A stretch of 64,000 nt of DNA from Taxawa tesnikishii (nom. ined.) (lineage: Eukaryota > Ascomycota > Dothideomycetes > Dothideales). The stretch covers positions 186,001 to 250,000 of the forward strand of contig JAPDRO010000007.1 of the NCBI GenBank assembly GCA_030247885.1, given 5' to 3'. The notes under the pieces are model-generated. The model did no database searches. It was not told the DNA's origin and worked only from the letters and a program-made list of their open reading frames with translations. Below, one piece after another: positions 2,050 through 60,520 of the stretch. A program made the position numbers and the translations under genes. How positions within the stretch are numbered: the stretch's first letter is position 1; every line of letters starts with the position of its first letter.

Positions 2050-2903
2050 ATGGCTGTTATGATCGGAAGCAACACGCCACACTCGGCCAAGCGCATTGAT
2101 GCCGCCTCTTCCTCTAAAGTGGTCCGCCTCGTTGACGTTCGCATCGCGTTAGAAGACGGCAGAGTGGCCGCTCTCGAACTCATGCCAGAGAACGCCCTTA
2201 CGTCGAGCTCTCGCTACGCAGCCGCTGCTCTGCGGGATATCGCTCCTATTCAAACCCTGGGAGACAACACTCCTGCGCCCAAGATACTCATTCTCCCTCC
2301 AAACTTCGCTCCAGTCGATGGCCTCAAGAGGGTCCTGGCCTCCATCGCCGCCGCAGCTCAGAAGCGAAGTAGACTTCACATTGGCGTGCCAGCTGCGCTG
2401 CGCAATATCGCCCTCTCCTGGAAAGCGGTCTGGGCTCTCGATTTGTTTGTCGAGCAGGTCCACATCCGCCATGCCTTGCTGGAAAAATCACCATCACGCC
2501 CACCTCAGCGGTCGCCCTCATCAACTTACGCAACTTGTTCAACATCCACAACGTAGACCTCTACCGTCGCGAGTCCGATGTCAACATCTACCGCCGTGCC
2601 GTCACTAGGGCTGCAGAGCGTATTCTCAACAACGAGATAGATGGAGAAGAAGCGACTGTTTTGCGCCACCAGCTTGCCAATGCTGCCGGAGTTCTCGATG
2701 ATCTCGACAGTCAAGTGCAGTATCAGCAGGACAAGTTCAACAGGAAGGCTCTCCTCGAGTGGAAGGACCTTCGCCAGCCTCGGGCGAAGGATCGCAAGGC
2801 AGAGCGCAGGAAGGGGAGCAAGAGAGGTCGAAAGGATGTTACGAGCCCGTACGTCATCGATGAGAAGACGGCCACCGCCATGATGGGCGCCAAGTACTCT
2901 TGA
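2050..2903 (+). CDS. Hypothetical protein, about 284 aa, one-base frame break
   Basis: I do not recognise the family. The ATG at 2050 (MAVMIGSNTP) follows a probable leader intron. The first frame runs to about 2480, giving roughly 144 residues rich in Ala, Leu and short beta-type stretches (RLVDVRIALEDGRVAALEL). The protein then clearly continues one base back, from about 2481 (GKITITPTSAVALINLRNLF) to the TGA at 2901. The second half has a helical segment (RRAVTRAAERILNNEIDGEE), then a coiled, basic tail (KDRKAERRKGSKRGRKD) suited to nuclear localisation or RNA binding. The break sits at CTGGAAAAATC and is explained by one missing base. No intron consensus fits. The size and N-terminal style recall fungal BTB-like hypothetical proteins, but no such motif is certain. 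Confidence 0.6.
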
Positions 2904-5900
2904 GGAAAGGATATCAGGATCTGGGGGATGGTGGCACGCTGAGTGTGGCGGCGTAAGAGGAGCGAACAGAGGAATGGAATGTGATCTGAGCGCTGTTATC
3001 CAGTTTCTCGCCGGTGTGGTACAGGCGTAGGAGCCAGTCGTATGTAAAACAATATTACAGTCATCAACACCTCCTCTTCTTCGTCCATCGCCTAAATCTT
3101 CCTTGCTTTGCCTCCAACAGAGGTCAGTGTATTGTATTTCCTGTCTCCGAACAGCAAGCGTCTATGCTTAGGTACTGGAAAGGGCAGAGCTTTGAGTGAC
3201 GAATCTGGATAAGATCCACCTCGGGCACTGGTAGATGTCGAACGCGTCACATCGAATGGTACCGACAAGCTCTCGACATACAGGAAGGGGCGGATTTGAA
3301 TATTGTAGAAGCTCAGGCCTTTACACTCGCCGAATGCGAATCATCACGGCTGTTTCAAGTCTAGGCTTGATGGGTCGTGAAACCTACGGCAAATCAGTCT
3401 GTCAGATTGTTGTTCCATGTCAAATACTAAACAGGGTTACCGTGACTCGATGTGAAGCAAGCAAGTCGTTGTTTTGTTCGCCTATGAGTGCCCGCTGTGG
3501 AGGCACAGAGTTGGGGGAGAGACTATTCGTGTTTTGCCCAGGCCGTGACTCCGTGAGCACCAAGCATAGCTCCTGCTGAACTCAATGAAGGATCGTGATG
3601 GTGGTCACTCGAACAGGTAGCCCATCTACTGCCGCTGCTTGCTTCGTTACGATGAGCCTTGCGGAAGTAGATATACAAATGAGATCAGGGCAATGGGTCT
3701 TTTACTGAAACGTCCTGATAACTCGCCTCGTGTGTACTCTATGTCAGCCAATAGCATTTTGGTGCGCTATACGCCGGTTGTATCGGGTCCACAAGCCTCT
3801 ATCACGTTGCGATTGGTCTCCTTGACTTGCAATAGGATCCCACAACATGCTGCTACACATTTCCGAGCTCAATGCCTGTCTCCAGGCCTCTGCAGCACTC
3901 CCATCTTCCCCAGTATACGCGTCTTCTCACATGGAGGCCGCATCACGCCTCCCTACTGGTCAGATCTCGTGAAATCTGACAACTCCACGACTTCTGACCT
4001 ACTGCTTTCCTAACTAGTCCACTCTGCTCCCAGCCCGCTGCCCAGCTGATCATTCTGCCAGCCAATCGGCGTAAGTTCGCAACGCTAAGTCTCACCGCCT
4101 TGGCACGAAGGCACAAAAACACCTCCGACTCTGGCTTTGGAGTAACTTTCTACACCGCAAATCGTTTCTTCGTTGTCTTCTTCCACCCTCCTCATCACTT
4201 CCCTCCACCCTCACCCCTTGTCATCTATGTTCTAGTTTCGCATGCATCATCCTTCTTCTTCGTTCAACATACTCATCCCTCACTCACACGCATCAATCAA
4301 TACCTACAATGGTCACAAAATCCAGTGGCCTAGGTCCATGGCACCAGGTATGTATCGTGCATCGTGATTTTGGCTTGATCAGGTTTACCTGGTCATGGCT
4401 AGTGGCAACCGGGACTGGCAATCCCAAAACGTCTTGATCAGGTTCACCTGTTCATCACGTTCAGCATTTGAGGCTGGCAACCTCATCGACAACCTTCGAC
4501 TTCCGGGCTCCTGGATCTGGACTTTGAGACGGTAGGTATAATCTGAGGCGAGTCCTCGTGCAGCTGACGGTACTACAGGGCCCGACACATGGCTCCACCT
4601 CTTCGTGGTGTGTCGGACTAGTAATCACTTCGGTGGTGAAGCCAACGGAGCCAAACAGTGGGTACAGTATAGCAGTTCATCCGTTTTTGGAACCAGCCAC
4701 CTTCATGGCATCTCTCTTTTCATCAGTGTCTCCAGCCCTGAGCTGGAACCTGGAGAAGACTTCCTTCTTTTCCCTGTTCTCCAATCTGCGTAACCAGTTG
4801 ATAATCCCGTGTTGTTCTCGCGGCGTGCTGTGACGTCTGTTATGATGTACATCGCTCGGAACGTCTCGCATAACGACCGCAAGTGAAGTTTCGTACATCT
4901 CCTTCGTACCACAACCAGATGCACAATCAGGATTCAATCGACAATGCTACTTCACGTGTTGCTCCACGTTCTATTCCTCGTACTGCTTCGTCACTAACCT
5001 CTGTAGCCATCGTCTACACACTCGAGCAGTGTCGCATACATCTGCTTTTCCATTTGCCCTCTAATTTCCGCTCCACGTCGAGGTCGGCCGGTTGACCTTG
5101 ACAGAACCGAAGACCTCACTGATGCGTTGCTGCAACAATGCCGATAACCAGAGCCTTCAGCACACCATCTACTCTGGAAGGAAAAGCCCAGCGCTATGGC
5201 GCCAATTTCACCACCACCCGCAACACTAGCGCCTAAAGAGCAGAAGCTGGAGGAAGATAAGAGTGATGCAACGTTGACGACTGACTACTGCTTCAGCATG
5301 TCCGGTTAGAAGAGCTTCGAAAGAGATGAAATGACACGCCGTTAGTTGGTCTACTATACTACTCTATACCACTTTCAATCCCGTTCTGTATTGGTGAATC
5401 TGCCCAATGTCCACATCTTGCTCAACAAGTTGCAGCAGTGCAAAGCGATGAGCAAGTGGTGAAGCCCGCTACGTGAATATGGATCAAATTTTTCGTCGCT
5501 TGCCCAGGATTATCACAGACACTGCTGCACCGCTTTCCTTCCCCACTCTCTCATACTTTGATCCTTCTCGTGTTCTCTGCGCCCATCTTGCAGCCTTGTG
5601 CGTTGAATCGACATGGCATCCTTACGGATTGAAACCATGTCGCCCGAATGAGACTTCGAAGTGCGATGAAAAGAATGGCATCTCCAAGAAGAAGACTACC
5701 AGCTTTGGTTGCATGTGAGACACTCCATCCAGACTTGCAAAGTGGAACAAAACTGAGCAGATTCAAAGAGACTCCAGATAGACACTGTACAGTGCGATCT
5801 TCGGGATGTGCAGGTAGGAGTGGATGCTCCGTAACGGGCGAATCGCACTTTGTCGCTGTGATGATGGCCTTCGTAGTATTCCTGGGAGCCTTTCATGCCT

Positions 5901-7017: not shown

Positions 7018-8718
7018 ATGTCTTCTGCCATGCACACAACGCGATCTCAAACAACCACTCCACTACGCCTGCAGCCAAGGAACACGGCTTCCGCTGCGGA
7101 GAGCAAGCTCTTTCCATTATTCCGTTATCTTGACAGCCATGGCAGCACCGTAGCGGACTCGGATGAGATATCTCCCCCTCGGTCACAGACACCAGCGGTA
7201 GAGATTTGCCCCGTTATATGCCAAAGGGGCCCACAGCTGGGCAAAGAAGTCTTCCATATCGTTCATTGCAGGAGCAGTATGTATCTCCTGACAGCAACTT
7301 GGTGAACCCCGACGCAGAAGTTTGGAGGTACTTAGATAGTCTCGGAACACCAAACACCTTGTCGTTCGAGCATTCTCCCGAGTGCACATCAGGGAATGGA
7401 GCGTACGGATGGAAGGATCCCCACGCTTGACAACACCAAAAAGCTCGTCAAAGGTTACCTTCAGCGCGCGATCATCGCCACTTCAGCGCCGGGCTTCTAT
7501 GCCTCTGCCTGCCACCCTTCGGCAGAAAATCGCGGAGAGACTGGCCGCTTCGTTTTCCACAAATGTTCGTATCCAAAATTTGGAGGCACGCGTTCGTGAG
7601 CTCGAAGCCAGAAACATTGACGGCATCACACCACCAAGCTTAACCCCTCAGCAGGATGCTCGGCTTCTGCATATGGTGGGTGAGAGGCCATGGGACGAGA
7701 TTGCCAACCACTTGCGTCTGCCGGTATGGGTTCTGAAGGCCCGCTACAACGAGATCACCCCTTTCAAGACTGCAGCGAACAATCGCAACTCGGTGCCAAA
7801 ACATCCAGCAGTCGGTTTCTCGGCTGAAGAAGTCGCCCAGATAATGCAGATGCGGCAACGCGGAGATTCGTGGAGCGAGGTGGGAGAGGCCATAGGGAAG
7901 GTGGTCAACCGCGTTGGGGAGAAGTACGAGCTTTTGGTCCGCAGAAGCACTCTCAGCGATACGATGCCAGTGGCGAAGACGTCGGCCAAAGTCGCTACTG
8001 TAGTGGGTACTGGAATAAGGAAACAAGTCAGGAAGAAAAGCCGTGGCGTCTTGTCCCAGTACGCTGCGAGAACGCTCTCTGGCCCATCTTTCGATCGCGC
8101 TTGTTCGACCCGCAACGACGTCGACAGGAAGCACAGAAATGAAGAAGATAGTAGTTACTTGGGGTTTACCATGTCAGACGACTTCAACATCCTTCGGTTG
8201 CACCTCAAAGCGAGATCATGGGAGCAGATCGCCGAGGTGCTAGGGAGATCGGTCTCGGAGATCAAGACACGTTTTGACGAGCTCGTTTCGTGTGAGAAGT
8301 TTTCCCGGAATCTGTCAGCCATACGGTAGAAGAGATGGAGGGAAACGATACCGTCATCATCAACACTGACAAAGATGCACTTCCAGAGAACGACTCGTAC
8401 GAGGACGTCGTCACCTTCATACAGGATAGCGAGCTCGCCGCGCGTTACACTAACAAAGCGAAGGGAAAGGCGCCTCAAGACGCTGTCACCCGCAAGCTCT
8501 CGGCCACTAATCAGTCGGACACTGCGCTTGACTCAGAAGTTCCCGTTCGGGCACCCACACCTGCCCGAATCAGAACATGCAGTGCAGAGATGTTCGCTGA
8601 AGATTTCAAAGCATCGCGGTCAAGTCTCATTCGCCGCATGCGTACCAAGACCCCCTCTATCGTCTCTGCCAAAACGCTTCGAGGCTTCTTTTCAAGCAAG
8701 TCGAAGAAGAGCCTCTGA
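7018..8718 (+). CDS. Three-repeat Myb/SANT-like nuclear protein, about 542 aa, two frame breaks
   Basis: Exon 1 (7018-7197; MSSAMHTTRSQTT) ends at a GTAGAG donor. An intron at 7198-7271 with a TTCATTGCAG acceptor joins it in phase to EQYVSPDSNLVNPD. Three helix-turn-helix repeats of Myb/homeodomain-like type follow: LTPQQDARLLHMVGERPWDE (about 7640), FSAEEVAQIMQMRQRGDSWS (about 7820) and LGFTMSDDFNILRLHLKARSWE (about 8160). Each carries the late Trp that anchors the third helix. Before them lies a short coiled segment (NVRIQNLEARVRELEARN). The frame slips back one base near 7408 and again near 8295-8305, after which EVFPESVSHTVEEMEGND leads to an acidic then basic tail ending KSKKSL. Role: probable DNA- or chromatin-binding protein. 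The specific family is not recognised. Confidence 0.6.
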
Positions 8719-14622: not shown

Positions 14623-15865
14623 TCAGATCCCGTCTCTCCTCCTTCTCGTCCTCCTCTCGCTCGTGTCAGTTGTACCGGGCTCCCATGCGCCGTCAAGCCA
14701 AAGACTCCTCTCGTCGTCCACTCTCTCCATCTTCTGATACGCGTCCTCACGTCCGCTGCTCAAATCTTCGGGCGGTGTCCTCTTCCTCTTCCTGAATTTC
14801 TTCGGCCTAGCGTCCTCTCCTTCGTTTTTAGCTTTCGGTTGTGCGAAGAGCGTGCGTCGTCCTTCGGCTTCGTCAAGCATGGAGGTGAGACTGGCGAAGG
14901 AAATGCTGATGCTGGCGTCTTGAAGGCTGCAAGGGATAGTGGAAAAGACAGCTTCGGGAAGGATGTCGGAGAGGGTGAGTGTCAGGAGGCCGTCGAGTGC
15001 GGCACCGTCGCGGTCGCGGAAGGGGATGGCGTCGAGGATGTGTTTGCAGATGCCAATCTCTTCGCCGGTTTCGGGGTCTATCTCGTCGCCAGGGCGCCAC
15101 AGGCTGACTGTGGCTTGCTTGTTGGTTGAAGTAGTGGAGGTGGTGCGGGAGCGTTGTCGTCGAATGGGGTAGGTGTACTCGATGTCTAGATCGAGAACGC
15201 AGCGAATAGCGTGGCACGAGCCGACTATGTAGGAGTCCACGATATAAGGGAGTTCTTTCCGCTTTTGCGAGAACGACACCTCAAGCGTCAACGCCGGAAA
15301 CCATAATCCAGGTGACACAGCGTAGCGTCCGGCGATCTGTCTAGCGTGTTCTTCGCTGCGTCAGCTGATTCCTGGCTCGACGATGGCGATAGTTGTAGAG
15401 AGATAGTCGGACTGCCTCCTGGTTTGATTTTCAAGAGAATGTCTGCGATCTCCGGCTCCTCTTTCGCCAACTCTCGTATTCGGTAAAGTATGGCCTCCAC
15501 TACGCGTTGAGTAAAGTATTCATGTGTCGTACTGGGCATGCGGAGGATGTAGAGACTTCTGGCTGGGTTGTAGTCGTAGCGCACTTTGTCCTGATACCAT
15601 CCCCAAAGGTCTTGGTCGGCGTGTAGCGCGTCGAGGAATCTCGAGTATTCGACTGGGGAGAGCCTGAAGTGTCGCAAAGGTTCGCCCTCGTGATGGTATG
15701 TGCTCTGCTCCCGCCGACGAAGGACGTCGAGAAGGCGTGCGACACTTTGCGGTACGAGAGGTTTTGGAGAGGCTGGAGGAGAGGGAGGGAGCTCTTGGTG
15801 GGGGTGGGGTCGATGGATAAGAGAGACGCGTTCGACGACTTTGCTGACAGAGTTTGCGAGGACAT
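14623..15865 (-). CDS. PD-(D/E)XK / Uma2-like fungal protein, about 414 aa, two frame breaks
   Basis: The N-terminus starts at 15865 (MSSQTLSAKSSNASLLSIDP). After one slip near 15670 it continues as LRHFRLSPVEYSRFLDALHA, KVRYDYNPARSLYILRMPST and TQRVVEAILYRIRELAKEEP. The stretch SPDATLCHLDYGF is followed, after a second slip near 15300, by PALTLEVSFSQKRKELPYIV and DSYIVGSCHAIRCVLDLDIE. The pattern PDA...PxLxLEVSxSQ matches the core of Uma2-like proteins of the PD-(D/E)XK nuclease superfamily, which are widespread as orphan genes in fungi. The C-terminus is charged and basic (PKKFRKRKRTPP), possibly nuclear. Both slips are one missing base. Nuclease activity is inference; the usual second acidic-Lys pair is represented only by EVS. 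The gene is either functional with consensus errors or decaying. Confidence 0.55.
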
Positions 15866-16652
15866 CGAGGCTATCCGCAAGATGTCTGTGTTGAAGCAGC
15901 GCGTTTCATATGGTGCAGCGCATTGTCCGGCGTTGGTATAGATGTATGCAACGCGGCGGTCGACATGTTGTCGCGAGACGTTCGAAGGATGACGCCCGCA
16001 GATCATCCGCCGGCAAGACAGCAGCTCACGTGATGCCGTCGCTTTTTCTGCGACACGTTTGCGGCAGAGAACGCAGAGCCGCATCCTCTTACTCATGAGA
16101 GGCTGAGACAAGACATTTACGATAGGAAGCATAGCATATGCACACCTGATCTCCGAAACAATGCGAGCTGAATGGAACAAAACGTGGCATACTCGAGTAC
16201 CCTTGGCGAGAAGAAGCTCCGCCTGCCTGCTCATCTTGTTCGACTGAATCGCTGCTCTGGCCCAGCACCAGGAGCACAACAAGAGCACAGACGCTGGTAA
16301 CTGCACTGTTCTTGCGGTGATCCAGGTCACGTACATTCAGGTGTCTTGCTGCGCGCTGTTCGTTGATCTCCAGGGTTCGGCTCGTGTCAGGGCGCGTCTT
16401 CGTCCTGATCTCCTCCGTCCGTACTCGAAGGTCGCACAATCTCGTTCACCACGAGTGACGTGAATCACACCTTGCATAAGCACCGCCGTTCTGTCTTCTT
16501 AGGATTGGATGCCGATAGCCTCTTGCGTCGTCAATCCGACACGGCAATGCGGCGCGGACCATGAAGACGCTGAAGATCGTCAGGACAGAACCTCATCTCT
16601 ACAGTGGAACCCATCGCGATGGCCTTGTATGCTTTCTTCATCAGTCTCGTAC
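15866..16652. other. Intergenic, nothing recognised
   Basis: Upstream flank of the PD-(D/E)XK-like gene. Frames on both strands are shadow-like and lack domains. Confidence 0.35.
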
Positions 16653-24062: not shown

Positions 24063-26614
24063 ATGGATCCCCTGTCTATCACAACCGCTGTTCTCTCTAT
24101 CACCAAGCTCTGCATAAGCTCCATTGGGCCACTGGCGACATGGATCGGGGATATCAAAGGAATAGCAAAGACGATTGAAGGGTTCCAGGGAGAAATAGAG
24201 ACGCTTGCTGCTACGCTGGACTGTCTGAAAGACACAATCACTTCCATTGAGTTGAACTTTCCAAACATGGGCAGCGAGCAGGGAACATGTGGAAGATTGC
24301 TGGTCAGGGTAAGTGCTATACTCGGTGATTGCGAGGCCACAATGGATAGGTTGGGCAGCATCTTTGCCCAGCTGGACAAGCACAGACGTTCCAACAAGGT
24401 TCGCGCGATACGGCAATTTCGTTACGAGTTGAAGTCCGGCGAAGTCGCATGTCTGCGGCAGCGGATACTACACTTCAACTCGACATTGGCTTTGCCCCTA
24501 CAACTGCTCACAGTATCTCTGCTAGTACACCAAAACACGCCTCGCATGCCAGATGATCTGTTTGGGATTCTTCAAAGGCTCGAACAACTTGGCAACGGAG
24601 TGATCAAGGGTGCCAATGCCCATGGTCCGACACCCGACACTCAAGTGTTCGATTGGCTGCAACAACTCGAATTTAACATGGCTCAAACGCAGGCAGCAAT
24701 CGAGGTGGTCACAGAACAGCTATCCCCAACGCCACCCGGAACGGCACCCGATCAACCGCAGAATCAGCGGTACAGTTTCGTTGATCTTTCCGAAGACAAC
24801 AGAGCAGAGGAGAGGGCGGTCTATGACAATCTCAAAGAGTGTGTGACTTCCGTACGCGAGCTTTCTTCCAGCGTCTCCTCTGCTGCCAGTGCAAGATCCG
24901 CCACTACATCAGGTACTTTGAGGCCGGCTGGGACAGCCAATCAGTCTCCTTTCGACAGTTTCTACACACGGGCATCTGTGTATGGCGTTCCCCTGAGCCA
25001 GGAAAGTCGCGAGAATATTGAAGCCTGGATACCTCAACGTCATGCCACACCTTCTCGTACCGTCCCAAGCAGCTCCCAGGATCTTAGCGGAAAGGCCTGC
25101 TCCACAGGCTCAGTTCGAACCGATGGTACCGACATGACTGAGCCTACGGACTCGGAAGATGACGATGCAATCGACCCACTGCTTTTGAAGGCTTACATCG
25201 ACAGTGGTCAGACCAAGTTCAGCACCGGCAACTACGAGTTAGCTGAAGCCGCTTTCCGAAAGGCCCTGTCTAGAATGGAGACTCTGCAGACCTATACGAC
25301 CGTGGCCATCACGCCAGATGACATTCGACTACTGCTGTCTGAAGCTTGCTTTAGACAACGAAAACTTGCAGAAGCGATCGAAACCGCTACGCATGTGGCC
25401 AACCGCACCTCAGATCCAAGCGATGGCAACCGTCTGGCAGCTGCACATCTCCTCGCCCAAATATACATGGAACAAGGTGACCTCGTCCGTGCCGAGCAGC
25501 ACGCGTTGACGGCGGTCCGTGGGAGGCGCAAACGATTTGGACGGTCACATGCCCTTCACCATCAATCGGTTGAACTTCTAATATTGATTTACCAGAAGAA
25601 GGGAGATGAAGTTGAGGTTGAAGCTTGGCAAACCTTGTTGCCAAACAAAGCCGGTGATGGTACATACATTCTACCAAACAAGAAGCCGACGCCGGCACGG
25701 AACGCTTCGACGGCAGACCACGCCTCTGGCCACCCGCGTCCGAGCCATATTCCAAATCCAGCACCTATGGGTGAGAGTCTAAGAAAGAAGACGATGCACC
25801 CTTCAGCGCCTGCATCAGTACCGGTACATGCAGCCGCGCCGGGAGACATCAGGAAGGATGAAAACTCTGCCAGGTGGACTCCGGTGCAGGAAGAGATGGC
25901 GGAACACCAAGCTGCTTGGGCGGAGATGGACGAAGACGAGCAAATGCGATGGGAGACGGCCGACGTTGCTCCACAGGATGAGTTTTTATTTCGTCTGATG
26001 AGCTGTATACCTCATCAGACGAACCTCACGTTTCTGCAAACGAACCATGGGCCTCAAGGATGAAGCCGCCTACCTCTGAGGACACGTCACGTACCCCGGA
26101 GAACAAGCTAAACGGCACCACAGAAGAGCAGCTGACTTCACGCCAGCAGTCTTTCGTGTATTATTATCAAAGGATAGAGAAGTGGTGCGCCGCCGCAGAC
26201 CACGATCGCGCTGTTCGAATGGCAATGCGACTTCTGAGGCTCTACCACTATGGCGACTGCCTTGTGTTGAAGGCGGCAGTCGGTTGTGGGTCTAAGATAT
26301 CGATGTCCCTGCCAGTCCGCTCAGGCTTGAGTGAGGCGATAAGAAGTGGCGGCGAATCCGGGCTGGTGTCGACTGCCACGAACAAGTGCGCGGCAATCCA
26401 TTTCTTTGCCGCTCTGCCTGGCGATTATCAGTTCGAGGTCAAGCATCTGCTCGAAAACGGTGCTAAGGCTAATACCGAGGCGACACTGGCAGAGCCACTC
26501 GTCGACAACCGTCATCTAATCCGATATGCGACACCTAGAATGTTGGCTTGGATGCAAGGTAACACAGCAGTGTCCCATTTGCTGTCTAAACATATCAGTG
26601 CCCAAGGAAGTTAA
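24063..26614 (+). CDS. STAND-type N-terminal domain / TPR / ankyrin protein, about 850 aa, one frame break
   Basis: The ATG at 24063 (ACAATGG context) begins MDPLSITTAVLSITKLCISS, the hallmark helix of the fungal N-terminal domain found on many NLR-like STAND proteins. A Ser/Thr-rich linker follows, then tetratricopeptide-like helices from about residue 370 (YIDSGQTKFSTGNYELAEAA, LLLSEACFRQRKLAEAIETA, RLAAAHLLAQIYMEQGDLVR). After the T run at 25983-25987 the frame slips one base back and continues DELYTSSDEPHVSANEPWAS into a helical part and an ankyrin-like repeat (AAIHFFAALPGDYQFEVKHL). It stops at 26614 after one repeat, whereas the neighbouring paralogue carries several more, so the 3' end is probably truncated. 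No NTPase module is present. A role in self/non-self recognition is inference from the N-terminal domain. Confidence 0.75.
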
Positions 26615-28031: not shown

Positions 28032-29977
28032 ATGGAGCCCGCGTCGGCCGCGTCCGCGATTGGCGGCGTCGCAAACCCTAAGAACAAGCGCTTCAGTCTA
28101 CGGACTCTGTACAGCCCATCTCCAAGGCCGGAGAGTATCGTGGCCTCGAATCGGAAGACTAGGGAAGGCTTTGCAACTCCGGGAAGCTCCCGTTATCACG
28201 AGTCTTCGAGCACAGTGTCCACCAGGAGCTCGTCCCGTGGCTACAGCCGACGCTCTTCAGGCTCCGTTTTGACCAAGGATACCGCTGCGACTCAATCGAG
28301 TGACTCGGGAGAAGACGATGTAACCGACCTTCTCAAGGGTTACATTTCCGATGGTCGGATCAGGCTCGATGCCGGAGAATACAAAACGGCTGAAGATGAT
28401 TTCCGAAAAGCCCTCTCCAAGATGGAAGCCCCACGATCTCGCTTTTCGGTAGACAGTACGCCAAGTGAAATTCGCTTGCTACTGTCCGAGGCATGCCTTG
28501 GTCAGAAGAAGTTCGATGAAGCTACGAAGTTTGCTACCGCTGTCGTCGACAGGATACCGGACCGACATGACGAGACTCGCCTGGCTGCTGCGCATCAGCT
28601 CGGTATAATCTACATGCAACAAGACCAGCTTGATCGTGCTGAAAAAATGCCATGGCGGCAGTCAGGGGGCGCCAGAAGCAGTTGGGGCGGACTCATCCCC
28701 TCTACTGCCAGTCGCTCGAGTTACTGAACTCTATCCATAAGAAGAAAGGAGACGGGATCGAGGCAGACGCTAGACAGGTCTTGTCACCGGCTACTACTGG
28801 CTCTGGCCGGAGCAGCTTCCTCGTTAGGAAGGCGAAGAGATTACTTGCTCCATCGTCAACTCGGGTGGATCTTAGACACAAGCCGTTGTCAGTTCCTCAA
28901 CAAGCCTTTACGAAAATCTACTGGCAAATCCACGAAACGTGTACCGCGGGGACTACGAACGCGCCGTTGCTCTGACTGGTGAGCTCCTTGATCTTTACCG
29001 GAAAGGTGAGAATCCTGACCTGATTGATCTGAATACTTCACATTGTGTAAAGGTCAGATCAATGCCGCTGCTCTTCCGCTCAGGTATGATTGAAGCCATC
29101 AGGGATGGGGAAGCTCTGGTATGACGTCTACTGCCTCTACAAAGTGTTCGCCCATCCATTTCTTCGCGGCCTTGCCTGGAGACCACTGCGATGAGGTTCA
29201 GTACCTGCTCGACCATCGCGTGGGGGTGACAACGACCGTAACTGTCACCGGAAGATGCAGCGGATCCGAAGACTACATTCGGGACTTCAGGCCCATCGAT
29301 CTGGCCGCGATCCAGGGCAACTTCAAGGTGTTCAAGTTGCTATATCCGCACACTCCCATCCCAGAAGATCAGGCGGATCCGAACGTCCCTTGGAGATTCG
29401 CGCACACCAGGCCAGGGAACCTTCGATTCATTCAGTTTCTGGTCCAATCTGGTGTGGACGTTACAACCGGTAGAAGTACGTCAAGAGCCACGATGCTACA
29501 CGAAACCGCCGCCTGGGGTGACGTCGACATGGTAAACTTACTGCTGTCGGTGGGGGCTCGGATCAACGCACGCGACTCCAATGGTAATACCCCTTACTCA
29601 TCGCACTCTGGACGTGCTACACGCTCTGCCGTATGGGGAAGTTGAACCAGGCGCGAGAGCGGGTGGAGGTGGTTGAAACCATTGTCAAGGGTGGAGCAGA
29701 CTTGAATGCAGTGTCAAAGAATAACAATGGGATCAAGTTCTGGGTTCTGCAGATTGGGAAGCTAAATCACGATCTGGCAGAGTCTCTTCGCAGCGTCATC
29801 GGTCTCCCAGAATCTCAGCCCTCCAGCACCGGGTTACTGGCAAGTACTGAGAGTTATGGGCGCGACCGCAGCCGACGGAACACTTATCGGTTCTCTCGTC
29901 TGTTATCTCATCCCTCTCAACCCAGATCTGCCGGGGGTCACGTCTCCACGGGTAATCGAGGATCAAGTGACGCCTGA
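28032..29977 (+). CDS. TPR/ankyrin paralogue of the preceding gene, about 649 aa, four frame breaks
   Basis: It begins MEPASAASAIGGVANPKNKR, the first turn of a STAND-type N-terminal helix, then passes directly to the Ser-rich linker, so most of that domain is absent. The TPR part aligns with the upstream gene: YISDGRIRLDAGEYKTAEDD, RLLLSEACLGQKKFDEATKF, AAVRGRQKQLGRTHPLYCQS. The ankyrin part reads SPIHFFAALPGDHCDEVQYL, RPIDLAAIQGNFKVFKLLYP, ATMLHETAAWGDVDMVNLLL and VETIVKGGADLNAVSKNNNG. The frame slips one base back near 28645 (an A6 run), 28930, 29110 and 29600. Four slips could mean a pseudogene, but all have the sign seen across the window. It arose by tandem duplication with the gene at 24063. 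Confidence 0.65.
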
Positions 29978-33999: not shown

Positions 34000-35561
34000 A
34001 TGGACGATAATTTGAGTCCGACAGCGTCGACGTTCGTGGCAAGTCCGACGTCGACGACTTTCCTGACGAGTCCGACATCGACACTTTTACAGCAAGTCCG
34101 GCGTCGACGACCACCAGCTTCGACTCCGTGGAATTGGAGAAGGGGTATGCGAAAGCGAAGTATGGGTTCATATCCGAACAAACCCTGAGCTTCCAGATCG
34201 CCGAGAAGGAGCGCATAGAACATATCAGCAACCAGCATCCCCTGCCTGAGAAGAACTCTCCCGAAAGCAAGTCCAGATTCCTGCGGTTACACTTCTGGTC
34301 GACGTACCGGGTTTTGTTCGTCATCGTCTTTCTGGCGAATCTGGCTGTCCTCATCGCACTTTCGGTCCCCAAATCACTCATCAGCACAAGCCTCAGCTCA
34401 GAAAATACCGCGACGGCCGTGTCTTGCAATTTGCTCGTCGCAATAGCCGCAAGGAACGAGCATGTGGTCAACATGCTTTTCGCCTGTGCAGTCCACATCC
34501 CGCTCAATGTTCCTCTCCGGATAAGGACGTATGCAGCCAAGGTCTACGGCTACGGTGGCATGCACTCTGGATGCGCGATTGCGGCTGTCTCCTGGTACAT
34601 CCTGTACGTGGGCTTGTTGACGCGAGACAACATCCAGAACGGATTCAAGGACCTGCCGACCATGGTCATCGGCTATTCCATCTTGGCTCTCCTTCTCTCA
34701 ATCGTGATCCTCGCATACCCGTCGCTTCGGATTCGATACCACGATGTTTTCGAGAACGTTCACCGCTTCGCTGGTTGGTCCGCCATCGCGCTCTTCTGGG
34801 CCCAAATCCCCGTCTCCGCGTACCTTCAAAGTCAGCAAACTAAGGTTGCAATGGGCAAGATCCTCATCCAAACACCCACCTTCTGGATCCTCATCGCCAT
34901 AACCCTCCTCATAATCTACCCCTGGACGAACCTCCGCCTCCGCACTGTCGAGGCCGAAGTCCTCTCTCCGCATGCTATGCGCTTGTACTTCCCGCACGGC
35001 CACCTTCTCTCCGCGCAAGGCGTCCGGCTCACAGACGCTCCGCTCAAGGAGACGCATTCCTTCGCCACCATACCCAACCCTCACGGAGCAAAGGGGTTCA
35101 GCGTCATCATCTCAAACGCGGGCGATTGGACCAACCGCATGATCCAGAATCCGCCCGCCAAGCTCTGGATGCGCGGACTGCCGACGACGGGGATGCTGCA
35201 CGTCGCGCTGGCGTTTCGGAAGTGCGTCATCGTCACTACAGGCAGTGGTATCGGACCCTGTCTTTCCGTGTTCGCGGGATCTCCCGAATACGTGAGCCGC
35301 ATCCTGTGGAGTACGCCCAAGCCGCTCGAGACCTACGGTGTTGGGTTGGTTTCAGAGGTGATGGCTGCCGATCCGGAGGCTGTGATCATCGACACCAGGT
35401 TGACCGGGCGGCCGGATCTAACGAAGTTGGCGTATAGTTTATACAAGGAGACAGATGCGGAGGCAGTGCTGGTTATGAGTAACCAAAAGGTCGTGGAGAG
35501 TGTAGTGGGAGAGTTGGAGGCGAGAGGAGTGCCTGCGTTCGGGCCAATCTTTGATTCATGA
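34000..35561 (+). CDS. TmpA-like integral membrane FAD/NAD(P)-type oxidoreductase, about 520 aa, one frame break
   Basis: The main frame lacks an ATG. The natural start is the ATG at 34000 in AACATGG context (MDDNLSPTASTFVASPTSTT). The Ser/Pro/Thr repeat in that frame continues one base back from about 34087 (TASPASTTTSFDSVELEKGY), so a single base is missing. The body has about six hydrophobic segments (VLFVIVFLANLAVLIALSV, CAIAAVSWYILYVGLL, IGYSILALLLSIVILAYP, FAGWSAIALFWAQIPVSAY, FWILIAITLLIIYPW). A reductase domain follows with CVIVTTGSGIGPCLSVFAGS, the glycine-rich nucleotide-binding loop of ferric-reductase-type enzymes, and ends PAFGPIFDS. Its closest known relatives are the TmpA membrane proteins linked to conidiation signalling in Aspergillus. 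The substrate is unknown. Confidence 0.75.
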
Positions 35562-41075: not shown

Positions 41076-43453
41076 TTAGCTAAAGTTAAATTCCGTGCCA
41101 GTGTTGTCAAGACTTCCAGCCCACAGATCTTCGTTGATCAGCATCGGTGCACACCCCGCCATCCACGTGGCAGCATCCCAAGCAGGCTCGAGGAAGAAGT
41201 CCGTCTGAGGCTGAACCGTATCTGTGCTGCAACCGCGAAGATCGTTGCCGCAAAGACTGAGTATCACATCGCGGCATCTCGGCGCGCTTGGGTTTATCGT
41301 GGCCATTGAGTGCACGATTTCCAAGGCGGATTCGATCTGGAAACGCCACTCAGGTGCTAATGCAGACTGTGGTTTGCTCCGCAAGCAGTGGACCGGGATC
41401 AGCGCTGCCTGAAAGAGAAAGTAACTGCACAGGTCAGCGTTTGCAACATCGCACTGGAGGCCGAGAAAGCTCACAGCACGTAGAAGGAAGTCAACCTTGA
41501 CTGGTAGTTTGATTTCCAGAAGCTTTGAATGTGAGTGATGCTCTCCGAGGCGGCCTGTAAGCATCGGTCGGTAGCTACTTGCTCGTCCCACGGAAGATCT
41601 TGTGCTCCAGCTTGCAACGCCCATCGGACGAGGAATGGCCTGAACATGATGATTCTCAGATTGCGAAATCTCCACGAATTGATCCCATGGACAAGGCTAT
41701 ATTTCGGTTTCAGTGTCGAGCCGGCATGGTCGACGAAGTACTGCGGGACTTTGCCCACCCATGAGCTAACAATTGTGTCATCGAACACTAAAAGCTGCTC
41801 GGCTCTGGGTGGTGGATTGCTGATGACTCGGTTGTATATCTTCATAGTGTGCAAATGATAGGACGACTGCTCCCGGATGTACGTGCAAACAGTGGCCTCG
41901 TCGGTTTCGAGTGGCTGAGTGTACAAGCCAGGATGTAGTTGCTTACAATCAATGAGTATCAGTCGGTGGTAGTTGGAAAAACTCGACTCACTTCTTCATG
42001 TAAATTCGAGGGCAATCCGGCATCCACTCCCTCTTGCGGCCACGTCAGTGGTCGGCTGTATGTGATAGTGGCGCCAACGTCAAGAACGCACAGCGACCAC
42101 CAGATTCTTCTGCGCATCTCTCGAGCAAGGGTGGACATCTTTTTACCAGCGAGCTCCTTGTGCAGCCCCAGTCCGATGGCAAGGCGTAGAGCAAGCCCAC
42201 CATAGCTGTAGCCACTGTTTGGCTTGTTGCGCTTCTGTAAATAATGTGCCATCAAACCAAAGATCTGGACCATCGCCAGATTCCCCACCTCGAGACAGTT
42301 CATCGACAAATTCTGCTGGGCCGTCCTAAAGATCGCCACGTCTGTGTTATCATGGAAACTAGTGCTGGACGCGAACGCCCCAGCAGCTGCAACAAGGTTC
42401 ACCAGTACCATCCATGTACCTTGGCTTGGGCGAGGTGTTGTGCTTGCGTATTGAGCTCGGAATGTTGGCTCGTGCAAAGCGGGGAAAGTGGGATGGTAGA
42501 GACTGAAATACGCATCCACGAAAGCATCGGACATGGCTCGCGTGACTAGCGCTTGTGCGTGCACGTCTGACGTCGCCGCAGTCTCCTGAGATTGTCTCAG
42601 CAGCTGCAGCATATGACACTGCCGCTGGCTCCGCGAGGCTGGATCCCAGGCGGGGCCGCTTGCCGTTTCCATCCACATAGTGCGCAGGTGAGACGCCCCA
42701 GATGCAGTACCAAGATAGCCATAGTTGGCAGCATCTACAGTCAATGTGGCCATGCCATCCATGATCTTTTGACGCCTTCTTCGTCGCCCATAGATCGAGC
42801 TGCAGGATTGCTGGAGCCGAGACCGGCAGAGGATCTCTCCTGTTCGTCCCATTCGAATTCTTCCTCGTCGGAGTAATCGGCTGTTTGATACACTCCTTCA
42901 TTTGGCTCCAGCTGTTCAGTAGAAGGGCTAGCCCCGGGTCCACTGGAAACGAGCCATCCGAGCGTCGCTGGGAAGGGCGGAGAATAGTTTGCTTGAGCGT
43001 CATACTGCTGGTGGTTGTATGAATGATATGTTTGCCCGGAATCCGGTGTGACTTGTCGGGTCGTCGCATCCTCCGCCGATCGTACCGGCGGCAACACTGG
43101 GACTTCTCCGGACACGTTCTGATCCAGGAGGTGGGTGACTTGTTCTTCCGTGAATATTCTCCTCAGGATATCTTCGGCTCGCTGGAGCCGATACTCGACC
43201 TCGGTGAGATGTCTGTAGAAATGTTAAACCAGCGTTGTTAGAATCGCGGGGCTGCCTCGACAGACTTTCTCGTCAAAGGCGTACGGCTGTTCTTGTCGTA
43301 GAGACAGTGTCGCCTGTAACGTCTGCATGTGGAGCACTCCGGGATTTTGTGATCGCAATTAGCCTTCCTCCGTCTGCATTCTTTGCAGGCTAAATTATCA
43401 TCGCAATGCGCAGGTCTTTTCACCAAGCCAGCGTGCGCAATGTGAGTTGCCAT
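41076..43453 (-). CDS. Zn2Cys6 transcription factor with fungal-specific TF domain, about 741 aa, three introns, one frame break
   Basis: Exon 1 (43453-43266) begins MATHIAHAGLVKRP and holds the binuclear zinc cluster CKECRRRKANCDHKIPECSTC followed by a basic stretch. Introns: 43265-43213 (GTCTGT donor, GGTTTAAC branch), 41991-41942 (GTGAGT) and 41474-41425 (GTGAGC). All join in phase: TRK|HLTEVEYRLQRAED, HEE|QLHPGLYTQPLE and YVL|YFLFQAALIPVH. The middle homology region follows the usual pattern: DAYFSLYHPTFPALHEPTFR, GGLALRLAIGLGLHKE and RRRIWWSLCVLDVGATITYS. One base is missing in an A run of the coding strand (plus 42767-42770), where GDEEGVK must continue as KIMDGMATLTVDAANYGYLG. Restoring the count gives exactly 742 codons. 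Role: nuclear pathway-specific activator, probably of the adjacent transporter and dehydrogenase. Confidence 0.85.
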
Positions 43454-46836: not shown

Positions 46837-48492
46837 ATGGTACACCTGACCGACAGCGTTTCGTCAGACGGCACCGGTTCCTTGAACCGCCGCGTCGAGA
46901 AGGTATCCGGGCATGAATCTACCCATCCCAAGGTTCGCAGTCCAACTAATCCATAATCAAGATTGGAGTCATCGGCACAGGAGTGATGGGTTCCATGTTT
47001 GCTCTCCTGTTAGCCTCGAACGGGATAACAGTCTACATCCACGACCGTTCAGAACAAAGCATGCAAAACACCGCCACTAAAGCGAAAGCGTCCGGCCTCT
47101 CGGGCAATGTAATCCTGTGCCATGATTACGATAGTCTCTGCGAATCTCTTGGCTCACCCAAAGTCTTCATATTCAGTCTGCCTCATGGCGGGCCTGGAAA
47201 CGCTGTCGTGCAGACTCTGTCACCCTACCTCCGAGCAGGCGACATCATCGTCGACGCCTCGAACGAAGACTATCGAGTCACGCAGAAGCGACAAGCAATC
47301 CTCGAGCCCTTCGACGTACACTACATCGGCATGGGCATCTCCGGTGGTTTCAATGGCGCACGCTACGGACCGGCCATGATGCCTGGCGGCTCTACGTACG
47401 CAGTCGAGATGTTGCTTCCGCTCTTGGAAAAGATAGCAGCCAGGGATGGACAAGGAAGACCTTGCGTGGCGCGCATTGGCTCGGGAGGAAGTGGACATTA
47501 TGTCAAGATGATTCACAATGGCATTGAACACGGCATTATGTCCACACTGTGCGAGGCATGGGAGCTGATGAGCAGGTGCCTAGGCATGACCGGCGACAAC
47601 ATTGCCAAGGTGTTCGACTCGTGGTGTGAAGATGGTCCTTTGGTGTGTGCACAAACAAATCCTCTAATCTACCCTGGCTTGCTGACATGACCGAGAAAAA
47701 CAATTTTCTTGTCGAAATAAGTGGGCCGGTCTGCAGGACCAGAGACCGCAGATCCAACTACCTCCTGGCCACCATCCATGATGCTGTAGTCCAAGACGCC
47801 AACGATAGTGAAGGCACAGGCGTCTGGGCAAACGAAGAAGCCATCACCGCCCATGTTCCTGCCCCTCTCTCTCCGCGGCGCACAACTTACGCCTCGCGTC
47901 CTCGGATATGGCTCAACGCGCGACCATAAGGCCGTACCTTGGTATAATGGAAACGGAAAAGATGCACCTTTCGGACAAAGCGCAGTCGCAATTCCTTCTC
48001 AAACTCCACGATGCAGTATTTGCATCCGTGCTTGCTTGTTTTGCACAAGGGCTGGACCTTATGGCCAGAGCCGATGAGCGCGAGGGGTGGAATCTGGATT
48101 TCGTCAGCGTTATCAACGTCTGGAGGGCCGGGTGCATCATCCGATCGGACTACGTTGCTGATTTACTCGAGCGGCACTACAAGAGGGCCATGACGGCGGA
48201 GAGCAAGGACAAGGCACATCCACTCTGTGGGGATGAGATCTCGAGAGATCTGAGGAGATGTCTGCCTGCGTTGAAGACGGTGCTCATTGCGGGCCTGGAA
48301 TTCAATGCGCATATGCCTTGTTTGAGCGCGAGTTTGGAGTACCTGAAGTACATGGCTTGCACGAATCTGCCGACGAGCTTTATGGAGGCGCAGCTGGATT
48401 GTTTCGGCGCGCATGGATACGATCTCAAGAGTGAGGTTGTGCAGAGGTTTGCGAAGGGCAGGCATCACAACAGCTGGTCTGTTGCCGCTTGA
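46837..48492 (+). CDS. 6-phosphogluconate dehydrogenase paralogue, about 514 aa, two introns, one frame break
   Basis: Exons are 46837-46902 (MVHLTDSVSSDGTGSLNRRV), 46962-47642 and 47696-48492. Introns of 59 and 53 nt have GTATCC and GTGTGT donors and join in phase to IGVIGTGVMGSMFALLLASN and GPL|KNNFLVEISGPV. The Rossmann loop is GVIGTGVMGSM; substrate and catalytic segments are VDASNEDY, GISGGFNGARYGPAMMPGG and GSGGSGHYVKMIHNGIEHG, with the catalytic Lys and Asn present. The usual GGEEGARYGP reads GGFNGARYGP, a notable divergence. The C-terminal all-helical domain is complete (SVINVWRAGCIIRSDYV, CLPALKTVLIAGLEFNAHMP, AQLDCFGAHGYDL). One C is missing near 47862-47865, where HVPAP must continue SLSAAHNLRLASSDMAQRAT. 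Reaction of the family: oxidative decarboxylation of 6-phosphogluconate to ribulose 5-phosphate with NADP. It is not the housekeeping enzyme, which starts differently. Confidence 0.85.
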
Positions 48493-49969: not shown

Positions 49970-49982
49970 GGTTATGAGCCCG

Positions 49983-50768: not shown

Positions 50769-50810
50769 TGATCGACTACCCCACCTGATCGACTTCCCCG
50801 CGGTTTACGT
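50769..50810 (-). repeat. Right terminal inverted repeat of the pogo/Fot1 element
   Basis: It is 42 bp and a perfect inverted match to 48584-48625. TA follows it at 50811-50812. Confidence 0.95.
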
Positions 50811-50812
50811 TA

Positions 50813-52650: not shown

Positions 52651-54492
<1,842 letters not shown>

Positions 54493-55830: not shown

Positions 55831-57687
55831 TCACAGGCCATGCTGCCTGAAAAAGTCGACAAAGGTGAACATGCTGGCCTTGGGGGTCCTGACTTCGGTG
55901 GTGTAGTTGACGCTCTGCAATCCGAACCTGGTGGTCAGTCCGCTGCTCCACTCGAAGTTGTCGAAGATGCCCCAGGCGATGGCGCCGGTGACGTTGACAC
56001 CGTCCTCGACCTTGGCGGCGAGGAGGTTGTTGAGGTAGCCCTGGAAGTAGTCCTGCCGGCGCTGGTCGAAGAGCTGGTCCGGGTACGAGGTGAAGTCGCT
56101 CTCGAAGGGCTCCGCGAAGCCGAACTCGGACAGGACGATGTCCTTGCCCTTGGGGCCCGTGTACGTGTTCTGGAGGTAGTTGAGGAACTGCCTGATGCCC
56201 ACGGGTACGCTCTTGAGCCAGGACGCGCCCGGGTCGGCCGCCGGACCGATGTCCCAGCCGGAAGCGGTGACTTGGGACTGACGGATGCAGGTCGGGTAGC
56301 TGGGGTCGGAGCTGTTGGACACGCAGGATGAGGTGGTGTTGCCGGGGAGCGCGCCGATGATGTCGGTTGTGTAGCCATCGATGGCGAAGAAGTCGCAGGA
56401 GCCGAGGATCATGGCGCTCTGCGCGGCGGTGAAGTTGGGGAGCAGGTCGCCGAGGGTGCTGCGCATCGAGGCCGGGTAGTCGCCCGTGCGCCACACCGGG
56501 TCGTTGAACCAGCCGAGCTGGAAGTCGTTGCCGCGGGCGACGGCGGCGGCGTCGGCGGCGGAGGTCGTGTTGGCGATGAAGTTGTTGGCGCTGTTCTTGA
56601 AGGTCACGCGGCCCTTGCCCTGCAGCTCGTTGCGGTACCAGTCGACAATCTGCGCGTGCACGAGCAGAGTGTTGTGGCCGCAGTAGTACTGCGCGCGGAG
56701 ACCGGTGATGCCGTACTGTGGCCAGTAGCCCTCCGGGAAGCCCGGGTACTCGTCACCGCAGTAGACCTGAGGTTCGTTGACGGTGACCCAGATCGGAACG
56801 TATGCGTCGTAACGGGTCATGATGAGCTGAGCGTAGGCCAGGAAGTCGGCGATGATGTCCTCGGAGACCCAGCCATTGTACTCGTTCATGAGGGCGAGAG
56901 GCGTGTCCCAGTGGAACAGGGTGACGACGGGCTTGATGCCGGCGTCGACGAGGCGCTGGATGACGTCGTCGTAGTGAGCGAGGGCCTGCTCGTTGACGTA
57001 GCCGCGGCCGAAGGGGAAGACGCGGCTCCAGGAGATGCTGAGGGAGAAGTATGGGATGTTGAAGGCCTTCAGGCGCTCAATGTCCTGCGGGTAGAGGTAG
57101 TAGTGGAGGTCAGTGATGTCTCCGGTGGTACCGTCGGCAACGTAACCGGGAACACGGTGGGACAGCAGGTCCCAGATCGAGGGACCGCGGCCCTCCGCCA
57201 TGGCTGCACCCTCGACCTGGTAGGCAGCACTGGCGACACCCCAGACGAAATCGGAGGGCAGCTTGTAGGAGCTCAGGTTGCCGGTGGTGATCTGAGACGA
57301 GAAGCTCAGGGACGGAGGTGGCACCGGGGACGGCTCTGGCGTCGGGCTGACGGTGGTGTTGAAGGGGAGAGAGGAGACGGGTCCGACCTGCTCCCAGAGC
57401 CTCGACCATGCTTGCTCAGAGTAGTCGGTGGTGAGGACCTGACCCGATGAGGTGGGTGTTGGCGCCTGCGAAGTCCAGGAGGTGTAGGTGAAGTTGCTCA
57501 GGCTGGAGAAGGTCAAGTTCCCGCTCGCCGGGGCGGCACTCTGCATGGCAGAGCTGGAGGCGGCCGATCCGATGGCGGAGATCTGGCTCGAGGCAGCAGC
57601 TCCGACACCCGCGGAGGAGGTGGAGGCTTGGGCGAAGGCAGCGCGAGCGCCGAGGACGGCGGCGCCCAGCAGGGAAAGGGTCGACAT
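55831..57687 (-). CDS. Secreted GH1 beta-glucosidase, 618 aa
   Basis: The single exon is intact from the ATG at 57687 to 55831. A signal peptide (MSTLSLLGAAVLGARAAFAQ) is followed by a Ser/Ala/Thr-rich, likely O-glycosylated linker of about 140 residues before the catalytic (beta/alpha)8 barrel begins at KLPSDFVWGVASAAYQVEGA, the GH1 N-terminal signature. The acid/base Glu is in WVTVNEPQVYC (about residue 300) and the nucleophile Glu in IVLSEFGFAEP (about 520, the ITENG equivalent). AWGIFDNFEWSSGLTTRFGL is the C-terminal substrate-binding motif. Reaction: release of terminal beta-D-glucose from cellobiose or beta-glucosides outside the cell. Several N-glycosylation sites are present (NLTF, NFTY, NTTV). 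A TATA box lies 60 bp upstream. Confidence 0.95.
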   Translation of the reverse strand: MSTLSLLGAAVLGARAAFAQASTSSAGVGAAASSQISAIGSAASSSAMQSAAPASGNLTFSSLSNFTYTSWTSQAPTPTSSGQVLTTDYSEQAWSRLWEQVGPVSSLPFNTTVSPTPEPSPVPPPSLSFSSQITTGNLSSYKLPSDFVWGVASAAYQVEGAAMAEGRGPSIWDLLSHRVPGYVADGTTGDITDLHYYLYPQDIERLKAFNIPYFSLSISWSRVFPFGRGYVNEQALAHYDDVIQRLVDAGIKPVVTLFHWDTPLALMNEYNGWVSEDIIADFLAYAQLIMTRYDAYVPIWVTVNEPQVYCGDEYPGFPEGYWPQYGITGLRAQYYCGHNTLLVHAQIVDWYRNELQGKGRVTFKNSANNFIANTTSAADAAAVARGNDFQLGWFNDPVWRTGDYPASMRSTLGDLLPNFTAAQSAMILGSCDFFAIDGYTTDIIGALPGNTTSSCVSNSSDPSYPTCIRQSQVTASGWDIGPAADPGASWLKSVPVGIRQFLNYLQNTYTGPKGKDIVLSEFGFAEPFESDFTSYPDQLFDQRRQDYFQGYLNNLLAAKVEDGVNVTGAIAWGIFDNFEWSSGLTTRFGLQSVNYTTEVRTPKASMFTFVDFFRQHGL

Positions 57688-57746
57688 GGCTGCAGACGTG
57701 CTGGATGATGTTCCTGGTGGACAGCAGTGGTGACGCCCTTCCCTGC

Positions 57747-57754
57747 CTTATATA
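57747..57754 (-). promoter_or_regulatory. TATA box of the beta-glucosidase gene
   Basis: The minus strand reads GTATATAAGGC, 60 bases upstream of the ATG. Confidence 0.6.
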
Positions 57755-58320
57755 CCACGCCTGACGCGCACGGCATCGGTACGCTCACGACGACGACAGC
57801 ACAGGAATGCCGCGGGGGGCAGAGACTCTCGCTCCGCGACAGCACAGATGTTCCGCCCCAGCCACTTTCTGGCCGCCGTTCCGACCAATCGAACATGTGC
57901 GACATGATGTTTGGCAGACGAAAAGGCAGCGATGTCGCTCGATGCACATGCCGAATCCTTGCAGTCGCATTGTCCGTCACTGTCCAGCAACGGGTCTAGT
58001 GCTGATGCGGCTCCGTCAGGTGCCTGTTCCACCTGTCTGTTCTGGCATGCCGTCCGCGCCGCTCCACTCCGGCTCGGATCCATGTGCACAGGCACCAATG
58101 AGACATGTCGCAGACTCCACAGCGGCCGACTGGAGGGCGTCCGGGTCTCCGCGCCGGGTTTCCTGGTGCTGGACGACAGTGCATAGGATGGTATGCGAGG
58201 GAGATGAGGTGAGGTACGGTGATGGAGAGGACCCGGGGATGAAGCAAGAAACGGCGCTGCTGACTCCACAATGCTTGTCTGTGCGGCTTGTGCGGACGTC
58301 ATCATGTACCGTGCTACCCG

Positions 58321-58370
58321 CCATGTCTCTCCATGTCTCTCTGTGTCTCTCCATGTCTCTCCGCGTCCAT
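58321..58370. repeat. Minisatellite, five 10-bp units
   Basis: The unit is CCATGTCTCT; units 1, 2 and 4 are exact, unit 3 reads CTGTGTCTCT and unit 5 is degenerate. Confidence 0.8.
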
Positions 58371-58958
58371 CGCCGGCGGGCACACACTGGATCCCAGCAA
58401 GGCTGGGGAGACAGTGGGAAGAACCTGCTCTTCTAAGCCGTCCCGCCCGAAACCACGGCGACCGCCGAAGTCTGTGTTGGTATTGAGGCTGCTGCTGATG
58501 CTTTGGACTTCTCCATCTCTCGAGACGAGGTACGCGGCAGCTGACAGCTTCACAGCCGAGCAGCCGTCCATCGACAAATACGCGTTACACACGACGAGCG
58601 AAAGCGTGCAAGCGCCAGGCCGTGCGCGTCGTCGTGGCCGAAGGAAGTGTCGTCGACCTACATGTTCCACGTTCAAGCCAAGCACGACCAAGCTCTTTGG
58701 GCCGAAAGCTTCGTTCCCACGGAACATGCGCTCGGTACCTGAGCGACGACATGTTCATGCAAGTAACCAACAGCCGCAGTCATGTCTTGGTATCATCCGA
58801 CGGGGAGCTAGCTATGTGCTATATGCTATATGCTATATATCCCATGGCAACCGCTTTGCCTAGCGCGCATCTCCCATCGCACGTCGCACGCCAAGGACGT
58901 CACGCACATCATCTTCTTACCACAACCCCCCCCCCCTCTCACCCTCCCTCGTCACCCC

Positions 58959-60520
58959 TCAATGCCTCCACACCCTGACTTGCTTGTCCTGCCCGCCGCT
59001 TCCCACCCTCTCCCCGTCCGGGCTCCAATCGACCGCGAAGACCTGATCCTTGTGCCCGGGCAGATCCTCCCTCAACTTCCCCGTCCTCGTGTCCCACACC
59101 TTGAGCGTGGTGTCCTTGCTGCCACTGACGAGCAGCCTGCTGTCCGCGCTGAACGCGACCTGGTACACGGGTCCGACGTGGCCCTTGAGCGTGTGCAGGA
59201 AGCTGCCGTCGCGCGCGCTCCAGAGCTTGATGAGGTTGTCGAAGCCCGCCGACGCGAGCAGCGTGCCGTCGGGCGAGAAGACGACGTGGTTGACTTGCTT
59301 CTGATGGCCCAGGAGACGCGCCACGGGCTTGGTGGACGTGCCGGGCGTCCAGAGGTAGATGGTGCAGTCGTCGGACGCCGACACCAGGCGCTCGACGACG
59401 GTGCCGTCGCTGCCGGAGTTGACGCCCGCGGCCGCTTCGAAGCGCTCCTTTGCCTTGGCGCGCATGCCCGCCCCGCTGTCCGGGATCGACTTCTTCCCGC
59501 CGTGGTCGTGGTACGCCGTTCGGAGGACGAAATCCGTGCTCAGCGCCAGGTGGTTCACCCAGTGCGCGTGCGCGTTCAGCGTGTGCGCCAGCGTGCCGTC
59601 CGACGCCCTCCACACCTTGATGCTCTTGTCGTGGCTCGCCGTGTAGATGAAACCGGCGCCTCCCCACCTCACGCAGCTCACGTTGCCCTTGTGTCCCGTC
59701 AAAGCCATGTCCGCCTTCCTGCCCACCGTGTCCCATATCCTGACCGTGCCGTCCTTGCTCGCCGACGCCAGTCTCGGCCTCCCCGCCGCCTGCACGTGAT
59801 ACGGCTCCCAGCTCAGGCTCGTGATCCACTTCGTGTGACCCTTCAGGGGCCCGCCGAGCGGTTTCCCCGTCACCGGGTCCCACAGACGCACCGTGTTGTC
59901 CATGCTCCCCGTCGCCAGCACGCCGCCGTCCGGACTCCACGCCACGCACAGCACCCACCCGGTGTGCGCGCTCAGCGTGTGCAGCGGCGTCCCCGTCTCG
60001 CAGTCCCAGATCCGTGCGGTCTTGTCCCCGCTCCCCGTCGCGAGGCGCGAGCTCGACGCGGGCGAGAACTGCGTGCACAGGATCGACTCGCCGTGTCCCG
60101 ATATGGCCGCCGAACACCGCGTCACCGCCTTGACCCTGAACACCGCCTCCGCGCGACAGGGGATGTCGAGCTGCACTTCGCTGCTGCTTTCGCCCTTCGC
60201 GATCGCGTCCAGGATCCGCTGCTGGCTGAACTCGGCCCCTTCTGCGCCATCGGTGCCGAGGGGGTCGTAGAAGCGGTAGGGAAGCCGTTCGGAGGCGTCG
60301 TTGCGGTCGAGGAGGGAGTTGAGGAGGAGGGAGAGGTTTTGGGCGTGAGGTCGGCGAGCGAGATGGTCACCACGGGTCCTTGCGGGAGGCCGGTGTCTGC
60401 GTCGAGGAACTGGATGCGCTGGTTGCCCACGGGCATGGGTGGTGGAGAGACCTGCTCGCGAGCGCGTGCCGCGGCGGCCGTCTTTTGCCGTTTCGAAGGC
60501 GGTGGGAGAACCGTCGCCAT
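58959..60520 (-). CDS. Ribosome assembly factor Rsa4/Notchless (NLE domain + WD40), about 520 aa, one frame break
   Basis: Rsa4 binds the pre-60S particle in the nucleolus/nucleus, and the AAA+ ATPase Rea1 pulls on its N-terminal MIDAS-interacting domain to drive maturation. The ATG at 60520 begins MATVLPPPSKRQKT. The NLE domain follows: VGNQRIQFLDADTGLPQGPV, SLADLTP, then one base back QNLSLLLNSLLDRNDASERL, PYRFYDPLGTDG and EVQLDIPCRAEAVFRVKAVT. Eight WD40 blades come next, including AISGHGESILCTQFSPASSS, HTGWVLCVAWSPDGGVLATG, GHKGNVSCVRWGGAGFIYTA and GHKDQVFAVDWSPDGERVGS, ending RVWRH. A base is missing in the C run of ACGCCCAAAAC (plus about 60344-60352); restoring it gives 521 codons, the family's usual size. 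The protein is essential in yeast, so a genuine break is unlikely. Confidence 0.93.

Follow-up and report, generated by a model that had tools for sequence, protein, structure and literature searches.

The stretch examined here, which we call the window, comprises 64,000 nucleotides (nt) of the dothideomycete Taxawa tesnikishii (nom. ined.), bases 186001–250000 of contig 32 (JAPDRO010000007.1) in a genome assembly of 29,367,862 bases and 34 contigs (GCA_030247885.1). It carries a 6-phosphogluconate dehydrogenase-like gene, a gene for a Gal4-type regulator, the gene for Rsa4, a pair of TPR-repeat paralogues, and GST, GH1, MFS and P450 genes; the regulator, Rsa4 and the intron signals mark the DNA as fungal. 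Several of its reading frames are broken, in that the protein continues in another frame, and a first-pass annotation made from the sequence listed 15 such sites. These frame breaks and their origin are the subject of this study. The letter N is absent from the window and from the 22 checked loci (given L numbers below) with the exception of L021, which is wholly N.

The first-pass annotation had claimed that the continuing frame always lies one base back, and frame arithmetic agrees at all 14 of the sites scored (7408 lay outside the scoring). The frame pairs were chosen by eye from three-frame views after the list had been drawn up, and the result is therefore a check of sign rather than a blind count; at 10740, the frames seen in the three-frame view match the claim. 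No convincing extra-base break was found within the window, as had also been stated, and the reading frames flanking the breaks stay open. The association with short homopolymers holds as well, with a run of at least four identical bases inside 12 of 13 intervals (Table 1; the exception is 15300, and 10740 is not among the 13), although this count alone is weak in that several intervals are longer than 100 nt. No break was seen in the GST, GH1, MFS and P450 genes of the window.

Table 1. Intervals to which frame breaks of the window were assigned (window positions)
Frame break	Interval	Strand	Remarks
2480	2373..2556	+	One base back, A run inside; family unknown
8300	8296..8329	+	T run inside; alternative is an intron, 8292–8386
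15300	15288..15360	-	No run of at least 4 inside; family unknown
15670	15500..15905	-	Wide interval; family unknown
25983	25982..26063	+	TPR / PigL_N-like gene, T run inside
28645	28643..28727	+	TPR/ankyrin gene; contains homopolymers; pieces adjoin when set against paralogue
28930	28876..28975	+	Same TPR/ankyrin gene as 28645
29110	29094..29124	+	TPR/ankyrin gene of 28645, G run inside; pieces abut against paralogue
29600	29588..29645	+	Past the ankyrin repeat, C run inside; no family support downstream
34087	34011..34188	+	Contains T and G runs; without a Pfam match
42768	42741..42897	-	Gal4-type regulator, A run inside
47863	47812..47929	+	6-phosphogluconate dehydrogenase-like gene; contains a C run; profile pieces adjoin
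60348	60300..60439	-	Rsa4; contains an A run; pieces adjoin

At four of the sites (28645, 29110, 47863 and 60348), pieces recognized by homology meet directly, short of exactly one base. In the Rsa4 gene, one frame corresponds to residues 1–64 of an Rsa4 chain of solved structure (E = 0.0027) and the next to residues 63–517 of that chain, and among three candidates scored in the genome no other match reached E ≤ 1e-20. The dehydrogenase shows positions 48–102 of the 6PGD profile in one frame and 98–290 in the next. Its family assignment rests on Pfam, a structure-sequence search with the downstream piece having returned nothing at E ≤ 1e-20, while comparison with plasmid proteins gave bacterial relatives only, all below 60% identity. 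The other two sites lie in one of the adjoining TPR-repeat paralogues (23904–26614, PigL_N-like at its start, and 28032–29977, with ankyrin repeats), where the pieces on either side of 28645 and 29110 match consecutive parts of the 23904–26614 gene.

Homology gives partial support at three further sites. The regulator has a Gal4_dimer piece upstream of 42768 and a Fungal_trans piece downstream, with the junction itself uncovered; at 28930 the paralogue matches both sides, leaving about 140 nt in between without a match; and at 29600 there is an ankyrin repeat upstream, the downstream side matching neither the paralogue nor a family. Open frames are the sole support at 2480, 7408, 8300, 10740, 15300, 15670, 25983 and 34087. 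When a diverged copy on contig 33 is aligned with the 2480 gene, the window shows a one-base gap, and there is a second gap close by; the copied stretch of 149 bases (window 2368–2514) is 84.6% identical to L002 1501–1649. The contig 33 copy has stops in each of the three frames of the strand viewed and looks like a decayed fragment.

The breaks had further been described as lacking splice sites. Among the sites tested, a candidate intron (of 95 bases) was seen at 8300 only, and this break may therefore be an intron. The test has less than full sensitivity: a likely intron near 47650 escaped it owing to an acceptor other than YAG. By eye, other frame changes in the MFS, regulator, dehydrogenase and P450 genes (near 47650, 42000, 41490, 45400, 45130, 52902 and 53229) look like introns of about 50 to 130 bases, all of them outside the list of breaks.

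The sign of the breaks was then scored blind with a 3-periodic Markov frame model that penalizes missing and extra bases equally and allows introns; it was trained on long open reading frames (ORFs), namely those of the tested loci together with some exons of the window. An earlier choice of ORFs by codon usage drifted to some genes and lost a 960-aa ORF of L008, and was replaced by this model. In synthetic genes, 60 planted deletions gave 58 deletion and no insertion calls, 60 planted insertions gave 57 insertion and no deletion calls, and 60 intact genes gave none. Across 18 loci of 10 kb, one on each of 18 contigs, the model called 27 missing bases and no extra base (17 to none when the cost was made harsher). 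Extra-base breaks in similar numbers, which would have contradicted the first-pass annotation, are thus not found in these loci. Within the window, the mild cost yielded seven missing-base calls and one extra-base call, and the harsh cost two and none. The extra-base call, at 53296, lies at the end of an intron of the P450 gene, and the missing-base calls at 53030 and 41990 lie at visible introns; those at 2484, 8303, 42768 and 60338 coincide with listed sites, and a further one, at 39111, is unassigned.

Homology provides a second count of sign. Four Pfam families were searched genome-wide and neighboring pieces belonging to a single gene were joined into pairs, the input being all 106 p450, 14 Aldedh and 27 AA_permease matches and the 19 of 101 Fungal_trans matches for which a neighbor was present by eye; 61 pairs remained after removal of those more than 700 bases apart, overlapping by more than 60 profile positions or not in profile order. 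(Genome searches with Sugar_tr and MFS_1, nine candidates scored each, stood outside the pairing.) The spare DNA, that is, the DNA between two pieces beyond what the profile requires, lies between −7 and +16 bases in 14 pairs, is 35 and 44 in two, and is at least 48, and thus intron-like, in 45. Eleven of the 14 short-gap pairs continue one base back and three show a net +1. Read by eye, the DNA of the latter holds an intron at L025 and two one-back steps by way of the third frame at L023, both firm readings; at L024, two adjacent homopolymers are read as two losses, the softest of the three. In the chaperonin family, whose 24 matches were paired by hand, a subunit gene on contig 1 is broken once, at a G run, and likewise continues one base back. 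The 15 junctions without room for an intron thus comprise 12 single steps of one base back, two net +1 shifts read as two one-back steps and one intron; at face value, without the readings by eye, the tally is 12 to 3.

Both sets of breaks fall preferentially at homopolymers. A run of at least four identical bases lies within 15 nt of 16 of the 27 model calls, against a fraction of 0.176 for positions drawn at random from the coding segments that the model called (p = 1.5e-6), and by eye at 11 of the 12 single homology breaks, the exception being L027. Long runs are also scarce in the assembly at large. Over 244 kb, with coding and non-coding DNA pooled, runs of length 3 to 7 number 4013, 818, 138, 3 and 1 for C/G and 3626, 854, 182, 22 and 5 for A/T; homopolymer counts exclude L001 (inside the window), L003 and L021, and the run spectrum also L002. 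Markov models of order 2, 3 and 4 built on the same DNA predict an average of 43, 28 and 22 C/G runs of at least six where 7 are seen, including three C runs of 10, 11 and 19, and 51, 48 and 40 A/T runs where 28 are seen, a shortage beyond length 5 that is sharp for C/G and moderate for A/T. In 50 kb of Escherichia coli K-12, a different kind of genome, A/T runs of at least six reach 82 per 100 kb, compared with 11.5 in our sample, and C/G runs 6.0, compared with 2.9, the C/G numbers being small. In L003 (contig 1, 100001–110000), with a guanine-plus-cytosine (GC) content of 23%, the longest A/T run is at most six.

Taken together, these results bear out what the first-pass annotation had offered as its simplest reading, a deletion-biased consensus error from long reads. 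The breaks have one sign, often sit at homopolymers, accompany a shortage of long runs and strike genes expected to be essential, and they are spread genome-wide, housekeeping genes included. It is very probable that they are errors of the assembly sequence, with single bases dropped throughout the genome, often where a homopolymer is one base short; in the fungus itself the genes are most likely intact. Such an error would account jointly for the single sign over 18 contigs, the position at homopolymers, the run shortage and the breaks in Rsa4 and the chaperonin subunit: the consensus would call a short homopolymer one base too short, and the lost base would break the frame. The cause may lie in nanopore base calling or in light polishing of a long-read consensus, and the platform was probably nanopore.

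Similar errors are on record. In nanopore data, all base callers with a single exception cut homopolymers off at 5, while one assembly carried 28,791 deletions against 3,900 insertions (PMC5889714); the strong deletion bias, single-base losses, few runs above 5 and genome-wide spread are all shared with the present assembly. Fungal nanopore assemblies likewise contain homopolymer indels that break reading frames (PMC7500977, PMC9453082), and ours resembles them as a contiguous long-read assembly with one-base indels at homopolymers in conserved fungal genes.

Several observations weigh against this explanation. The shortage of A/T runs of at least six is just moderate (28 versus 40 to 51), C runs of 10 and 11 (window 51532 and 58926) and 19 (L012 5058) survive, 11 of the 27 model calls have no run of at least four within 15 nt, and the homology break at L027 lies at runs of 3. 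The surviving long C runs and the breaks away from runs of at least four also distinguish our case from the errors in PMC5889714, as does a platform that we infer from the sequence. In one fungal nanopore study, moreover, polishing left more insertions than deletions, so that the errors there were mostly too long (PMC7500977), whereas here bases are only missing. The all-deletion pattern would therefore suggest an older base caller or light polishing.

Were the bases instead truly lost by the fungus, the breaks would reflect real decay of genes with a strong bias toward deletion. The TPR/ankyrin gene at 28032–29977, with four breaks and an adjoining paralogue, and the decayed fragment on contig 33 related to the 2480 gene are what such decay might leave behind. 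Pseudogene decay should produce indels of both signs in dispensable genes; we find one sign in 18 loci on 18 contigs with no extra-base call, and hits in Rsa4, which has no second copy, and in a chaperonin subunit. Rsa4 and chaperonin subunits are essential in yeast. The frames also stay open on either side of the breaks, and the genome-wide pattern does not fit decay limited to one region. We regard real decay as very unlikely, if somewhat less so than the readings that follow. That overlooked introns produce the breaks is scarcely credible, even with the candidate at 8300, the intron in L025, the several other frame changes of the window that are introns by eye and a test of incomplete sensitivity. 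At 13 homology junctions the spare DNA measures −7 to +5 bases, against at least 48 at the 45 intron-like ones, and the Rsa4 and 6PGD pieces abut; introns, moreover, shift the frame both ways and therefore do not explain 27 calls to 0.

A −1 recoding of many genes, by ribosomal frameshifting or transcriptional slippage, would by its nature place every continuing frame one base back, and programmed −1 frameshifting shares this net change with our breaks. It differs in that many unrelated genes are hit here and in that 23 of the 24 breaks tested lack an in-frame slippery heptamer (X XXY YYZ) at the junction. The one that has it, the canonical A AAA AAC, is a break near base 140 of the reverse strand of L035, in a P450 gene on contig 33; its simplest reading is a long A run that was called too short. 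The scarcity of long homopolymers across the sample, including L003, is not a matter of decoding, and we give recoding hardly any credence. Equally far-fetched is a genome whose homopolymers are truly short and whose one-base-short genes are rescued throughout by −1 slippage of RNA polymerase or ribosome at short runs, which nothing beyond the single sign favors.

Assembly error is thus a warning about data quality and not new biology; of low interest as biology, it is useful in that gene loss, pseudogenes, short proteins or recoding inferred from this assembly would mislead. By simple proportion, 27 calls per 180 kb extrapolate to some 4,400 detectable breaks over the 29.4 Mb. A sign-symmetric frame model combined with a homopolymer spectrum could flag similar assemblies without recourse to reads.

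Some features of composition and content were noted in passing. Within the window, GC content rises to 58–64% over 52001–60000, compared with about 50–55% across most of the remainder, and the P450, GH1 and Rsa4 genes of this GC-rich part are ordinary in appearance. The P450 gene (about 52651–54489), which we take to be sterol 14-demethylase-like, is apparently whole, with two introns. L003 has a GC content of 23.3% over its 10 kb, against about 53% for the genome, and is perhaps an AT-rich repeat or a centromere. At L006 7944, 24 CA units in a row persist in the assembly.

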